Below are positions 2,854 to 19,003 of a stretch of DNA of 21,248 nt, in pieces. Made by a program: the position numbers and the translations under genes. Within the stretch, counting starts at the first letter, position 1. Each line of letters begins with the position of its first letter. Origin of the DNA: a virus. Under the pieces are notes generated by a model. The model made no database searches, was not told the DNA's origin, and worked only from the letters and a program-made list of their open reading frames with translations. The stretch spans positions 1-21,248 of the IMG/VR virus record IMGVR_UViG_3300000117_000339; one strand, given 5' to 3'.

Positions 2854-3210
2854 GTGGAAGATTATGAGTTTGCTAAATCAGGAACAGATAATTGTGGGGA
2901 CCCTATTTTCTCCTTGAGTAGGCTTAAAGAGCGGTTTGAGTTAATTCATATAAAAACAAAACAAGGGTCAGCGTGGTTCTGTCACAGTAAAGATTTAGAT
3001 TGGATGCGTTTTTCTTTATTTGACTACCACTCATCTAGTGATTCTGATATAGGAGTGAGTATTATATTCCACGGAATGGGTCCATCAAATGTATTAAGAG
3101 AAATGAGGCATATATATTGGGGAGCTGATGGGAAGGGGTATACTTTTTATCTAAATAGAGACGCAGTCCGCAAATCTATGGATATATTAGATAAATTTTT
3201 CGATGATTAA
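2854..3210 (+). CDS. Hypothetical protein
   Basis: A 118-residue acidic soluble protein starting at GTG, with GGAG at 2844-2847 six bases upstream. The 60-base gap before it holds no other convincing gene. It has two Trp-containing patches (GSAWFCHSKDLDWMRF and RHIYWGADGKGYTFYL) and ends in an amphipathic helix KSMDILDKFFDD. There is no signal peptide, membrane segment or known motif, and I do not recognise the family. It is read as part of the same rightward operon. Confidence 0.6.
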   Translation: MEDYEFAKSGTDNCGDPIFSLSRLKERFELIHIKTKQGSAWFCHSKDLDWMRFSLFDYHSSSDSDIGVSIIFHGMGPSNVLREMRHIYWGADGKGYTFYLNRDAVRKSMDILDKFFDD

Positions 3211-3227
3211 AGGGGGGGTTGGAACAC

Positions 3228-3404
3228 ATGATGGAACTTAAAGTATTATTAACATCTTGTCTTGTTTTGACACTAAGTATACTTCTTGCAATGGTGTCTG
3301 AATACCTCAATAATAAGGCACTAGAGCGGCTCTGTATAGGGACAATGACACTATCGCTTCTAACTGCTATAATATCTTTTGCGGTGATGATATGGAAATC
3401 ATAG
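3228..3404 (+). CDS. Small two-helix membrane protein
   Basis: About 58 residues. Two hydrophobic helices (LLTSCLVLTLSILLAMV and IGTMTLSLLTAIISFAVMI) are joined by a short charged loop EYLNNKALERL. The ATG at 3228 is preferred; AGGGGGGG at 3211-3218 is a strong ribosome-binding site, and a TTG at 3219 lies too close to it. The size and topology would suit a small holin, and it sits two genes after the lytic transglycosylase. There is no sequence signature, and a better holin candidate lies on the other strand. The gene overlaps the next one by 13 bases. Confidence 0.6.
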   Translation: MMELKVLLTSCLVLTLSILLAMVSEYLNNKALERLCIGTMTLSLLTAIISFAVMIWKS

Positions 3405-3646
3405 GATGGATAGGAAACATATTACTCTCTTTTTGCGGACTTCCGGAAGCAATAAGAGCTGTGTTTCGAAAGAAATGCGAAGTGCCGTGGAGCTTATTAA
3501 TTCCTTGGTTCCTAGGCGAAGTACTAGTATTGGTATATGTGGTATATAAATATAACTCCGCACCACTTATAACAAACTACTGCGCCAATATAATTATAAT
3601 CCTTATAATGGGGAGATACAAAATTTATGATAAATCTAACAACTAA
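3392..3646 (+). CDS. SemiSWEET-like PQ-loop membrane protein
   Basis: An 84-residue protein with three predicted membrane helices (residues about 3-20, 33-52 and 57-74), the size and topology of one PQ-loop repeat. Helix 1 ends in FCGLPEAIRAVFRKK, matching the LPQ motif with Glu in place of Gln. This is followed by VPWSLLIPWFLGEVLVLVYV and a third helix TNYCANIIIILIMGRYKI. Bacterial SemiSWEETs of this size dimerise to move sugars across the inner membrane. A transport role here is inference; it could equally be an unrelated small phage membrane protein. No good Shine-Dalgarno precedes the ATG, and translation probably depends on the overlapping upstream gene. Confidence 0.6.
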   Translation: MEIIGWIGNILLSFCGLPEAIRAVFRKKCEVPWSLLIPWFLGEVLVLVYVVYKYNSAPLITNYCANIIIILIMGRYKIYDKSNN

Positions 3647-3738
3647 AGATGGAGAACCTTGGATGTTACACGAAAAAGACATTGCAGACATCAGACAAAT
3701 AGAAGATGAGGGTTATAAAGACGGGTGTATAGTATATT
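3600..3738 (+). repeat. 139-bp tandem duplication, left copy
   Basis: This unit is repeated directly at 3739-3877. It contains the last 15 codons of the PQ-loop gene, a GGGGAG ribosome-binding site and the first 38 codons of the downstream small gene. Bases 3600-3688 are identical to 3739-3827. The last 50 bases differ at 9 positions, 8 of them synonymous in the small gene (the other changes Tyr to Cys). Confidence 0.95.
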
Positions 3739-3785
3739 TCCTTATAATGGGGAGATACAAAATTTATGATAAATCTAACAACTAA
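3627..3785 (+). pseudogene. Truncated left copy of the FlbD-like gene, fused to PQ-loop tail
   Basis: This frame begins exactly like the intact gene at 3766 (MINLTTKDGEPWMLHEKD...). After residue 38 (...CIVYF) it crosses the duplication junction, and because the unit is 139 bp (not a multiple of three) it enters the frame of the PQ-loop gene and ends LIMGRYKIYDKSNN. The result is a 52-residue chimera with the 5' half of one gene and the C-terminus of another. It keeps GGGAG at 3610-3614, so it may still be translated. It overlaps the end of the PQ-loop gene by 20 bases. Confidence 0.75.
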
Positions 3786-3877
3786 AGATGGAGAACCTTG
3801 GATGTTACACGAAAAAGACATTGCAGATATTAGGCAAATAGAGGACGAAGGCTGTAAAGACGGTTGTATAGTATATT
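3739..3877 (+). repeat. 139-bp tandem duplication, right copy
   Basis: Right-hand copy of the unit at 3600-3738. It carries a non-coding remnant of the PQ-loop gene's 3' end, now serving as leader and ribosome-binding site, and the 5' part of the intact small gene at 3766. It ends at ...GTATATTTC, after which the two sequences diverge completely (TGGGATGG against CTTATAATGG). Confidence 0.95.
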
Positions 3878-3960
3878 TCTGGGATGGAGAGACTATTGAG
3901 GTAGTGGAAAATAAAGATGAAATTATGTGGACCGGTGCTAATACCACTTGGACTTCTTAA
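3766..3960 (+). CDS. Short FlbD-like protein (intact copy)
   Basis: A 64-residue protein. The plan is MINLTTKDGEPWMLHEKDI, then a short strand, then CIVYFWDGETIEVVENKDEI. It recalls FlbD-like small proteins (MI.LT..G....LN.D.I...... I.L.DG..I.V.E..DEV), a pattern common in phages with no established role. The ribosome-binding site GGGGAG lies about 11 bases upstream and derives from the duplicated PQ-loop 3' end. This is the last rightward gene; the late operon converges 15 bases downstream. Confidence 0.65.
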   Translation: MINLTTKDGEPWMLHEKDIADIRQIEDEGCKDGCIVYFWDGETIEVVENKDEIMWTGANTTWTS

Positions 3961-3980
3961 GGAATTATTGGAACCCTAAG
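3956..3980. terminator. Possible weak bidirectional terminator at convergent junction
   Basis: An imperfect inverted repeat: CTTAAGG (3956-3962) pairs with CCCTAAG (3974-3980) with one mismatch around an 11-base loop. It lies exactly where the rightward and leftward operons meet and overlaps the holin stop. No proper U-tract follows on either strand, so termination is uncertain. Confidence 0.25.
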
Positions 3981-4356
3981 ATTTCACAATTTTAGCAACT
4001 TTTTCTGCAGACCTAGCTCCAATATATCCCCCCAAACACATTCTTATTGTAGTCCAGAGTTCGCTAGATAGACCTGGATCTTGTGGAATATAAAAATTTA
4101 AATCAAAAGCAGTTCTTATATAAACCACTACATCGTACATAAACCAATGCGTGCCTATCATAGTGGCACATAATACCGCGAACATTGGGCGCCAATTTCG
4201 GGTCAAATAGCTTCCTGAGGACTGCTCTGCTTTTATAATGTCACTCTGCATCTTCATTTGCTTAGTAACTTCTTGGGTAAGAGATACTTTTAACTTATCT
4301 CTCTCAGATTGATCTGGTATAAATTTATTTACAATATCTAATATAGGACCAATCAT
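3976..4356 (-). CDS. Holin, three-transmembrane (HP1-type) family
   Basis: A 126-residue protein from the ATG at 4356, chosen because AGGAG lies six bases upstream. An open extension back to 4428 overlaps the upstream gene and is unlikely. It begins with an amphipathic helix (MIGPILDIVNKFIPDQSERDK) and a Lys/Gln-rich helix. SYLTRNWRPMFAVL then opens a long hydrophobic stretch ending near VVVYI, and WTTIRMCLGGYIGARSAEKV forms the last helix. The NWRP...GGYI.GRSAEK pattern is characteristic of phage 3TM holins. It would open the inner membrane so the endolysin can reach the wall. It is the last gene of the late operon, eight bases after the XhlA-like gene. Confidence 0.85.
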   Translation of the reverse strand: MIGPILDIVNKFIPDQSERDKLKVSLTQEVTKQMKMQSDIIKAEQSSGSYLTRNWRPMFAVLCATMIGTHWFMYDVVVYIRTAFDLNFYIPQDPGLSSELWTTIRMCLGGYIGARSAEKVAKIVKS

Positions 4357-4364
4357 TTTAGCTC

Positions 4365-4559
4365 CTAGGGAAGTTTTGCCCATGCTGTGAAGAATGCCGC
4401 CGCTCCGATAACAGCACCAATAGCCCATTTGGCGCCGTTGTATGCCCTATATACCGGAGTAGTCATCTTCTCTAACTCATCTGTGCGCTTGATATGGTAT
4501 TTCAAATCAGCTTTAATCTCAACTAAGGTCTCTTTTATATCATCAATTTTCTTTTCCAT
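4365..4559 (-). CDS. XhlA-like coiled-coil/membrane lysis accessory protein
   Basis: A 64-residue protein. The N-terminal coiled coil (MEKKIDDIKETLVEIKADLKYHIKRTDELEKM) leads to a linker and one membrane helix (AIGAVIGAAAFFTAWAKLP). The same plan, including the YHI.RTD.LE motif, is common in phages and in the haemolysin XhlA family beside holins, where it helps lysis or modulates the holin. The start overlaps the stop of the 715-residue gene by one base (TAATG), implying coupled translation. The opposite-strand open frame here is a shadow. Confidence 0.7.
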   Translation of the reverse strand: MEKKIDDIKETLVEIKADLKYHIKRTDELEKMTTPVYRAYNGAKWAIGAVIGAAAFFTAWAKLP

Positions 4560-11704: not shown

Positions 11705-12676
11705 TTAGTATATCCAGTCTTCAAGTATTGGTATTTCGTGTATATCTTCTTCAATTTCTTGATAAGATGATATTATATCTCTCTCTAACAGTGACAATTC
11801 CTGCAATTGCTCATTAACATCAACAGAAGAGTCGGTCTTAAGAACCTTAAATGCAGCAAAGTTTATTAAATATCTTTCTATATTTCTAGGAAGGTTACTA
11901 TGAGTATTGGTATCTTTACCACCAACAATATAATCCCCAACAGCAATCGATTCTCCAGAATTATAAGTAAAAGATGATCCTTCTAAAGTTACGACACCTG
12001 TCGATGTATCGATAGAATCTCCACCATCTCCGTCAAACTCTAGATTACGCATCTTCATAGTACCATTTTTACCTACTACACAAAAGAATTCATGTTCTGC
12101 TAAATCAGTAGTATCTATAGGAGGTGTTCCGGATACATCCAACGTAAGAGATGTAATAGCAGATCCAGAATCTGTAACTAAACTTACAACACCACGTCTT
12201 TTATCTAAGTTATCCATTCTCTGCACATAAGTAATTCTAAACTGACCAGAAGCATCCTGTGGAGCTGGACTTGCTAGAAACGATCCAGTAGCATTAGTAT
12301 ACTTATCTCTTCTAATGTAATGAACCGGTAGACCACTTACGTGAGAAATCCTATTCCTCTCCACGCCTGGCTTGAGCTTGTAATATATGGGATCCGCAGC
12401 GCTGGCATTTGTAGTATACTCAACAGAAAGTATTTTATTAGCCAAAAACACATCAGATGGGAGATTATACTCTTCCTGATCCTGAACAGCGGCAATTGTA
12501 GTTTCTGTTACAAATACCCTTGGATGTTGGGATAGTATTTTAGCCTGAATCCGATGCTGAGCCTCATTTATATACTCTATAATTTCATTATCTGCAATAT
12601 CTGTAGTAGAATTTGCAGTCTCATTTTCGGTAATAGATCTTATATGGTCTATCAGCCGATCTACTCGTCTAGACAT
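11705..12676 (-). CDS. Putative head-to-tail adaptor protein
   Basis: A 323-residue protein. Its N-terminal helices (RVDRLIDHIRSITE, then DIADNEIIEYINEAQHRIQAKI) match the NEA.R.(I/L) helical pattern seen in adaptor/tail accessory proteins of short-tailed phages (T7 gp11 or P22 gp4 type). These sit between portal and tail hub. The middle is beta-rich, with an insertion around residues 170-250, and the C-terminus is helical (RYLINFAAFKVLKTD ... LLERDIISSYQEIEED). It is immediately followed by the hub gene and overlaps the Gly-rich gene by one base. The assignment rests on position and helix pattern, so it is moderate. Confidence 0.5.
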   Translation of the reverse strand: MSRRVDRLIDHIRSITENETANSTTDIADNEIIEYINEAQHRIQAKILSQHPRVFVTETTIAAVQDQEEYNLPSDVFLANKILSVEYTTNASAADPIYYKLKPGVERNRISHVSGLPVHYIRRDKYTNATGSFLASPAPQDASGQFRITYVQRMDNLDKRRGVVSLVTDSGSAITSLTLDVSGTPPIDTTDLAEHEFFCVVGKNGTMKMRNLEFDGDGGDSIDTSTGVVTLEGSSFTYNSGESIAVGDYIVGGKDTNTHSNLPRNIERYLINFAAFKVLKTDSSVDVNEQLQELSLLERDIISSYQEIEEDIHEIPILEDWIY

Positions 12677-13292: not shown

Positions 13293-15071
13293 CTATACTT
13301 GTGTACTTACAGCAGTAACTACGATCCCAGGTCGAGCCGTATTACCCGGAACACTTTTATCACCATGTGGTCTGAGAACGTCTCCGCTCGCTAGCTTTAC
13401 AGATGCGGTCATATTATATGGGAAAGATCCAGTCTGACCGTGACCCAAACATACTCTATGCGCGGCTGTAATAGAAACAGGGTTAGTAGTAAGTTGATTA
13501 CTATTTAAACTAATACCAGAAACTGCGTGAGCTCCTCCAGGAGAGTATTGTGCCCATGACATAGTCACTACACAATCTCTTGTGGCTGTAACCGCAAACC
13601 CATTTGTAGAATCATTAGTTATAGTTAACATGGACTCACCAGTATTTGTATCCTGTGTAGTAAAATATGGGATAGACGTATTAGTAGACCCATATCCAGC
13701 ATGTCCAGAATATGCAATATATTGGTGAAATGTAGAAACAGTTCCAACAATCAACCAATTACTTCCGTCACAAATAAGTTCTAAAGCCTCATACTGTTTC
13801 TGGATAGTTTTAGTAGTGGATCCATTTATAGTCTCACTAGCATTACCATCTACTGTAATATCATTAGAATCACTAGTAGTTTTTACAATCTTTAACTTTC
13901 TACCACTATTTCCAGAAGCTGCATAAAGATTTACAGTAACGGCACCGGCAGATGTATCAACTTTTATAGTATCATCAGTAGTTAGGGCAGTGTATGGAGA
14001 GTCTCCATTATTTATAGAAGTAACAGCCACAGGAGATGCGGTATTTGTAGCCCATGCAGGAACTCCGCCAGATACTTGTAATACCTGACCAGCAGATCCG
14101 ATCCCTAATCTAGAAGCGGTAGTTCCACTAGAAGAATATATAATATCCCCTGTAGTAGTTATTGTAGTAGGTAGTTTTGCATCTATTTGCGTCTGAGCAT
14201 TAGAGCTTAGGGTATTAATATACTGAAATTCAGTACTAGTAACACTTCCATCAGCAATCTTAGTAGCATCTATCGCAGCACCGGCTTTAATATCCGCATT
14301 CACAATATTAGTAATGGTATTATTATCAGAATCTATAGTCTTATTTGTTAAAGTATCTGTAGAGCTAGTGCCAACTTTAGTATCTAACTGAGTCTGAATA
14401 GCACTTGTAACACCATTAACATATCCAATCTCAGTAGCAGTAGTAGTAGCAGCGCTTACAAAGCCAGATCCATCACTAACTACCGCTCTAGATGCAGTTA
14501 CTGCAGCTAATTTATCAACCGCAATTGCAGCAGAAGCCTTAATATCCGCATTTACAATATTAGTAATGGTATTATTATCAGAATCGATAGATTTATTAGT
14601 GAGTGTAGCAGTATCATCTTGTAACACTATTGTACCAGTAGCATCAGGAGAACTGAGCGTTCTAGTAGTTCCGGTAGTTATAGAAGCTGCATTTAGCGCA
14701 ATAACTTTAGTATTATCAGCATTATCAACGATCGTAAGACCATCATCCTGTATTTCTATTGTCCCAACCGACGCGCCGAATTCCACTTCATCACTAGTAT
14801 TTATCTTTGCGAGATTTATATTCCCAGAATTAGCCTGATTTCTACCACGCAAATACTCATCATTAGCTAGCAATATCTTGGCGCCAGTGATGGTATCATC
14901 AGCGAAGGCTCCAGCGGATAGTTGAACACCCTTTCCAGACGCTCCCGTATGATCATGGGTAGCAATCTTTAAGAATGTATCTGTCCTCATAGTCTCGTCC
15001 CAGCCCGTAGACCCGCGAGTTGGTACTTTTATCTGTAGCTGAGAAGTAGTACCTATTGTAATAAATGGCAT
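13293..15071 (-). CDS. Tail fibre / receptor-binding protein with internal repeats
   Basis: A 592-residue protein that should form trimeric fibres for host recognition. The N-terminal part (about 1-110) includes ATHDHTGASGKGVQL and likely attaches to the tail. Residues about 155-310 hold two long repeats: TLTNK(S/T)IDSDNNTITNI and VNADIKA(S/G)AAI, each followed by a TEIGYVNGVTSAIQTQLDTK-like unit (EFQYINTLSSNAQTQIDAK in the second). This is the familiar phage fibre shaft repeat. Residues about 340-440 form a beta segment (DTIKVDTSAGAVTVNLYAAS). The last 140 residues (from FHQYIAYSGHAGYG) look like a C1q/TNF-type jelly-roll tip. The putative chaperone gene follows. Confidence 0.8.
   Translation of the reverse strand: MPFITIGTTSQLQIKVPTRGSTGWDETMRTDTFLKIATHDHTGASGKGVQLSAGAFADDTITGAKILLANDEYLRGRNQANSGNINLAKINTSDEVEFGASVGTIEIQDDGLTIVDNADNTKVIALNAASITTGTTRTLSSPDATGTIVLQDDTATLTNKSIDSDNNTITNIVNADIKASAAIAVDKLAAVTASRAVVSDGSGFVSAATTTATEIGYVNGVTSAIQTQLDTKVGTSSTDTLTNKTIDSDNNTITNIVNADIKAGAAIDATKIADGSVTSTEFQYINTLSSNAQTQIDAKLPTTITTTGDIIYSSSGTTASRLGIGSAGQVLQVSGGVPAWATNTASPVAVTSINNGDSPYTALTTDDTIKVDTSAGAVTVNLYAASGNSGRKLKIVKTTSDSNDITVDGNASETINGSTTKTIQKQYEALELICDGSNWLIVGTVSTFHQYIAYSGHAGYGSTNTSIPYFTTQDTNTGESMLTITNDSTNGFAVTATRDCVVTMSWAQYSPGGAHAVSGISLNSNQLTTNPVSITAAHRVCLGHGQTGSFPYNMTASVKLASGDVLRPHGDKSVPGNTARPGIVVTAVSTQV
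14287..14338 (-). repeat. 52-bp fibre-shaft repeat, downstream copy
   Basis: Matches 14539-14590 with two differences over 52 bp, 252 bp (84 codons) apart and in frame. It encodes the IDSDNNTITNIVNADIK segment of the second shaft repeat. DNA identity this high shows recent duplication or conversion within the fibre gene. Confidence 0.9.
14539..14590 (-). repeat. 52-bp fibre-shaft repeat, upstream copy
   Basis: Partner of 14287-14338, encoding the same peptide in the first shaft repeat. The two differences are at CATT(C/T)AC and AATC(T/G)ATAG. Confidence 0.9.
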
Positions 15072-17749: not shown

Positions 17750-19003
17750 TTAGCTATCAGCTAATCCAGTCAAACGACCTTGAAATCGTGGCTGAATGAA
17801 GATTTCCATGTACCCACCATAACGTGCTTGGTAAGTATCAGAAGCATCTCTTCTAAGGAAAACTGTTCCGTCTTCGTCAAACCAACCAAAATCAGGAGCA
17901 TGAAGAGCTTCAATTTTGTTTGTGTTGATTGCGTAAACATAGTCTTTCTGAACAAATCTGTCAGCAACTATAGGAACTGGTCCAGAAGCACTCATGAATT
18001 GAAGAGCACTGAAAGAAACTTTTCCAACTAAACGCTCATCACGTGGTTGTACTTCAATTCTTTTATGATCACTCATGAAATCTTTGATTTTACGGAATTG
18101 GTAGTAAGAAGCAACGATCATGTCAGGAGTTTCTCCACTTTCTTCTTCAATCTCTAATACCAATTGGTTTAGAAGATCTTCAGAGATAGCAGCTCCGCCA
18201 GCAGCGATGCTTGTACCTTGGAAACGTCTTTGAGTGTGTGAAACACCATAAGTAGTTCCAGAAGTATTTCCGATCATTGCAAGACCTTCAGGATCTGTAT
18301 CTTTTGATCCCTGACAGTAAATAACGTCAGAAGTTGTAAATGGATTTGCACCAGCAAGTGTTCCAAGACGTGAAGAAGTTCCAACAAGTTGAAGCTGCTC
18401 AGATCCAGAAGTCTTTACAACAGCTTGGATAGAAAGATTAGTAGTTTCACTGTTAATATTAACGAGGTCACCTTCTTCAAAGTTTGCCCAGATAACAGAA
18501 GTAGCATCACCATCTACAAGAACGTCATAAGGATCACCAGCAGTACCGGCTCCTGTTACGTTAGAGTTACTTGCATTTCCAGTATAAAGAGCACCATCGC
18601 CAGCACCAAAAAGGATACGACTCATGTTTCTCTGAAGTGAAGATACAGCGCGCTTTGCAACATGCTCAAGAGCAGAAACGTCAAAGATACCTTTTTCGTT
18701 CTTACCAGCTTTCATTGCAAGTCTATCGATTTCAACAACAGAGTAAACTTTCTTATGAGTAAGCTCTGCCTGATCGTAAGAAGCACTGTCGTTAGAAACA
18801 GTTGGAAGGCTGTTTGTACCGAAACCAGAACCGTTTGAAAGTCCTAGTGATCTGTATTGTTTTTTACCAACAAAAGAGAATGATTTCTTGATTTTCATCC
18901 AAGTTACATTACTGTTATTGTATTGGTCCATTGATTTACCAGCAAATTCCTCTTTAAAAGCATCGGAAATGTCGGTAAGATTAAAATTTGTGCTATTAGC
19001 CAT
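17750..19003 (-). CDS. Major capsid protein, HK97 fold
   Basis: A 417-residue protein that forms the icosahedral shell. Visible landmarks are an N-terminal arm (about 1-40), KKVYSVVEIDRLAMKAG (E-loop to spine transition) and ALEHVAKRAVSSLQRNMSRI (long spine helix). A beta-rich insertion follows at about residues 140-232, then ESGETPDMIVASYYQFRKIK and PVPIVADRFVQKDYVYAINT (P- and A-domain). The end is ARYGGYMEIFIQPRFQGRLT, the typical closing strand of HK97-type capsids. It lies directly after the scaffold, has AGGAT upstream, and is followed by a strong terminator. Its codons (many Arg CGT) differ from the early genes, as expected for a highly expressed product. Confidence 0.9.
   Translation of the reverse strand: MANSTNFNLTDISDAFKEEFAGKSMDQYNNSNVTWMKIKKSFSFVGKKQYRSLGLSNGSGFGTNSLPTVSNDSASYDQAELTHKKVYSVVEIDRLAMKAGKNEKGIFDVSALEHVAKRAVSSLQRNMSRILFGAGDGALYTGNASNSNVTGAGTAGDPYDVLVDGDATSVIWANFEEGDLVNINSETTNLSIQAVVKTSGSEQLQLVGTSSRLGTLAGANPFTTSDVIYCQGSKDTDPEGLAMIGNTSGTTYGVSHTQRRFQGTSIAAGGAAISEDLLNQLVLEIEEESGETPDMIVASYYQFRKIKDFMSDHKRIEVQPRDERLVGKVSFSALQFMSASGPVPIVADRFVQKDYVYAINTNKIEALHAPDFGWFDEDGTVFLRRDASDTYQARYGGYMEIFIQPRFQGRLTGLADS

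Follow-up and report, generated by a model that had tools for sequence, protein, structure and literature searches.

The window analysed here, 21,248 nt of the virus record IMGVR_UViG_3300000117_000339, contains a unit of 139 nt that is present twice on the plus strand, head-to-tail and without a gap. The left copy is at 3600–3738 and the right copy at 3739–3877. Two independent repeat finders, one of them TRF, agree on this pair and on the nine differences between its copies (94% identity), as a preliminary description of this DNA had reported. Similarity at an offset of 139 ends sharply at both edges of the repeat, and this excludes chance as its origin. The junction of the duplication, ...GTATATT/TCC..., lies at 3737–3740 and contains no Ns. 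Only about 2 nt (TC) are common to both parental ends, an amount of homology that chance would often give and that does not discriminate between mechanisms. The sequence TATAAT is found within each copy (3604–3609 and 3743–3748), outside any promoter-like site of a pattern scan. In the 21 other loci fetched, just under 200 kb, there was no near-identical tandem pair of at least 60 nt, only degenerate repeats.

The unit spans the boundary between two overlapping genes. It begins with the last 47 nt of a gene for a PQ-loop-type membrane protein (3392–3646, plus strand, 84 aa), continues through a ribosome-binding site, and ends at the first base of codon 38 of a small gene (3766–3960, plus strand, 64 aa in its intact form), so that it takes in the 5' part (58%) of the latter. 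The left copy thus holds the PQ-loop gene end, the ribosome-binding site, and the start and codons 1–37 of the small gene. The PQ-loop assignment comes from relatives: the PF04193 profile finds no match in the protein of the window, which is 50–53% identical to two proteins (from loci L002 and L005) that both match at E about 1e-12. The small protein had been labelled FlbD-like. A comparison with the FlbD profile (PF06289) bears this out weakly at most, with an E of 0.17 and 12 bits against a cut-off of 24.7, and a second search gave no match.

The PQ-loop-type protein was compared with relatives from 18 IMG/VR loci (32–53% identity). Those that lie wholly within their contigs have 79–98 aa, and in most the C-terminus comes no more than about 10 residues past the same ...YK... 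motif. With 84 aa and an end of ...GRYKIYDKSNN, the window protein has the usual length and C-terminus of this family and is therefore complete. Because the left PQ-loop tail fits the natural C-terminus of the relatives, the left boundary is the ancestral one, and it is the tail in the right copy that is extra. By the same comparison, the pair of PQ-loop gene and small gene, with an overlap of 20 nt, is likely to be the ancestral arrangement. The preliminary description had suggested gene decay in progress. This does not agree with two parent genes that are both complete, nor with a PQ-loop protein of ordinary family length and C-terminus.

The chimeric reading frame

Between the two intact genes lies an in-frame fusion of them, an open reading frame of 52 codons at 3627–3785 on the plus strand (LIMGRYKIYDKSNN). 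The ORF list and the alignment of the copies give its composition. Codons 1–37 are those of the small gene, codon 38 is formed across the junction and encodes Phe in both contexts, and residues 39–52 are the PQ-loop tail. Since 139 is 1 mod 3, the small-gene frame continues past the junction in register with the original frame of the PQ-loop tail, and both this arithmetic and the 52-residue product had been described correctly before. The PQ-loop stop and the small-gene start overlap by 20 nt, and so do the chimera and the next start. PQ-loop gene, chimera and small gene thus form a chain in which every neighbour overlaps the next by 20 nt.

A ribosome-binding site, GGGGAG, precedes each of the two small-gene starts in an identical context on the plus strand, at 3610–3615 for the chimera and at 3749–3754 for the intact small gene. 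The whole initiation region (-27 to +62) is the same in both. It had been proposed that the PQ-loop tail of the right copy has become an untranslated leader that supplies the intact gene with its ribosome-binding site. The tail does carry that site. Yet its re-use as a new leader does not follow, as the GGGGAG of the small gene sits inside PQ-loop coding sequence and was already embedded there in the original pair. Nor is the tail an untranslated leader, for 3739–3785 lies inside the chimeric ORF and is read there in the frame it had before, provided that the chimera is made.

Because the initiation regions are identical, any translation of the intact gene from this mRNA should be accompanied by translation of the chimera. 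Translational coupling works best when the spacing is -4 to +3 nt and becomes weaker as the overlap increases (PMC12548453). An overlap of 20 nt would therefore be expected to couple the genes weakly, leaving the embedded ribosome-binding site as the likelier driver. The last 26 of the 64 residues of the small protein are missing from the chimera. Judged by this loss, the 52-residue product would be a by-product, probably a useless fused mini-gene. AlphaFold models were poor for both the chimera (pLDDT 51) and the intact small protein (47) and are uninformative on the folding of the chimera. RNA folds around the two starts were no more stable than those of shuffled sequences.

Differences between the copies

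The nine differences are confined to one part of the unit. The first 89 nt, 3600–3688 in the left copy and 3739–3827 in the right, are identical and hold the PQ-loop tail, GGGGAG, the ATG and codons 1–20. For this block the 95% upper bound on divergence is 3.3%. All nine differences fall in the 37 nt that follow, at unit positions 90–126 (3689–3725 against 3828–3864). Along the small gene this gives changes in none of the first 20 codons, then in 9 of 13, and then in none of 5. Under random placement the probability of a span of 37 nt or less is 7.8e-5. Eight of the nine are synonymous third-position changes, and the other exchanges Tyr30 for Cys30. The probability of at least eight synonymous changes in nine under random change is between 6e-6 and 3e-4, varying with the transition bias.

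Did these differences accumulate after the duplication, or were they there before the copies were joined? On the simplest account, the unit was duplicated within a single lineage and both copies then mutated in the ordinary way, in accord with the overall identity of 94%. This account is strongly disfavoured by the restriction of all differences to 37 of 139 nt and by the synonymous bias. A left copy drifting as a non-functional fragment would be expected to show many protein-altering changes, where eight of nine are synonymous. We reject simple duplication with drift on the distribution of the differences, and it is the least probable of the readings considered.

A second account makes the chimera a newborn gene, produced and selected, with purifying selection responsible for the synonymous character of changes that arose after the duplication. 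The open frame, the ribosome-binding site and an initiation region equal to that of the intact gene are consistent with this, as is the fact that eight of the nine differences are synonymous in the frame common to both ORFs. But if the chimera had been selected since the duplication, synonymous changes would be expected in its first 20 codons too, and selection leaves unexplained why there are none there and eight in the next 13. The part that is new, the PQ-loop tail, is unchanged and so gives no sign of selection either way. Gene birth, which the preliminary description had also suggested, can thus be retained only as a statement that there is a new ORF, which is a weak sense of the term. 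As a selected gene the chimera is very improbable. Less probable still is the fuller version of this idea, in which duplication over the boundary of overlapping genes adds, in one step and with harm to neither gene, a fusion gene that comes with its own ribosome-binding site and is then kept by selection.

The pattern is read most economically if the small gene existed as two functional alleles, already divergent in this block, and the copies were joined afterwards. Codon usage gives no answer as to which allele is native (log ratios of 0.07 and -0.36).

Origin of the duplication

We favour, at a probability of roughly 0.6, a recent tandem duplication with a short junction that was made, or then altered, when related phages recombined; the chimera would be a by-product. 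In an SU10-like phage, a short-junction (illegitimate) event would have taken place where the rightward gene block ends, across the 3' end of the PQ-loop gene and the 5' part of the small gene, and would have copied the gene overlap and the ribosome-binding site along with them. The two copies would represent alleles of the small gene that both existed beforehand and were functional. This could have happened in one step, through unequal crossover at the junction between two co-infecting related phages. Alternatively, a duplication in one phage may have been followed by a homologous crossover with another phage. Either route requires DNA molecules that actually contain the junction. Taking all variants together, with and without exchange between strains, a real duplication is in our judgement, which is not a computed value, somewhat more probable again.

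The main rival is an error of assembly, in which the locus is single-copy, two of its strain variants coexisted, the assembly set them end to end, and no phage carries two copies. The window is from an uncultivated, metagenome-derived IMG/VR record, and the duplication and its two alleles are known from this record alone. Allele-like differences that are clustered and synonymous are what strain variants would give, although real recombination between strains predicts the same. Chimeric contigs were present in every viral assembly benchmarked, usually at less than 2.5% of contigs and at less than 5% for those of at least 10 kb (PMC5610896). For vertebrate assemblies, false duplications of haplotypes are well documented (PMC9516828). 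They resemble the present case in that two diverged copies of a single locus carry allele-like differences, and differ from the phage contig in that they are described for diploid vertebrates.

Against an error of this kind stands the junction. It has no Ns and its ends share only the 2 nt or so, and a graph assembler normally needs a real or chimeric read across such a junction. Because the junction is clean and offers no usable overlap, we lean towards a real junction read. In addition, the nearest variant sites lie 13 and 89 nt from the junction, and these values appear to fit no single common k-mer length, which is a weak point. An assembly error is therefore possible but distinctly less probable than a real duplication. 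The nine differences had been put forward as an argument against an artefact. Clustered and nearly all synonymous as they are, they are just what joined strain alleles would give, and that argument is lost. More generally, an assembly artefact is not ruled out by the mere fact that tandem copies in a metagenome contig have diverged, and the pattern of the differences needs inspection.

The kind of event we favour is already known. In Staphylococcus aureus, short-junction tandem duplication makes the chimeric genes nusG'-'sigH and rplK'-'sigH, which are documented experimentally (PMC3486894). There, as here, duplication across a gene boundary fuses the start of the downstream gene to the rest of the upstream gene, the intact parents are kept, and the ribosome-binding site and start of the downstream gene drive the chimera. 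The S. aureus unit is 1210 bp in one clone and is flanked by 8-bp repeats, its copies come from one cell, and the function of the chimera was shown; the phage contig has a unit of 139 nt, homology of about 2 nt, two alleles, and a chimera known from sequence alone. Phage T4 undergoes segmental tandem amplification bounded by microhomology (PMC9391042), and there too phage DNA is repeated in tandem between ends that have a short sequence in common. The T4 amplification involves whole genes, selection on dosage and typically 6–10 bp of microhomology, whereas the phage contig has partial genes and about 2 nt. In Streptococcus pneumoniae, merodiploids arise by unequal exchange between DNA molecules (PMC3784515), and such crossing-over forms tandem duplications that could leave different alleles in the copies. 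Long repeats are required and the duplications measure about 100–900 kb, in contrast to the phage contig, where no sequence is shared beyond about 2 nt.

The locus would therefore be one more, small example. If real, it is a clean case in which duplicating the boundary of two overlapping genes yields a fusion gene already equipped with a ribosome-binding site, while both parents are spared, and also an example of allelic exchange between co-infecting phages.

Related loci and gene neighbourhood

Searches of IMG/VR with the small gene, the 3TM holin, the 715-aa protein, the 118-aa protein and the transglycosylase found no relative covering the locus, and the small gene found none among genome contigs. 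There was no match to 3001–4500 among phage isolates by blastn, and tblastn of the small gene gave chance-level matches only. Two contigs with related capsids, L020 (82% aa identity) and L021 (79%), stop short of the locus, and in the distant relative L022 the small gene has no match. Compared with L020 and L021 (about 80% identity in the capsid, IMG/VR), several neighbouring genes of the window are far less conserved or without a match. The capsid protein (17750–19003) and the adaptor (11705–12676) match SU10-type profiles.

The repeat lies at the end of a rightward gene block, where it meets a leftward block of structural and lysis genes. The leftward block includes a GTA-type 3TM holin gene at 3976–4428 and an XhlA-like gene at 4365–4559. 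The convergent genes at 3960–3976 are only 15 nt apart, and a pattern scan found no terminator-like site between them.

Other repeats are present in the window. A gene for a pentapeptide-repeat protein (879–1535; PF00805, E 3.5e-40), two genes past the end of the family A DNA polymerase gene, has near-exact tandem units of 15 nt at 1210–1259. An ORF of 592 aa (13293–15071) contains a repeat of 126 nt at 14236–14361 and 14488–14613 (75% identity, spacing 252, in frame) with the motif TLTNKSIDSDNNTITNIVNADIK, which is possibly a tail-fibre repeat. Degenerate tandem arrays are also found in L021 and L022.
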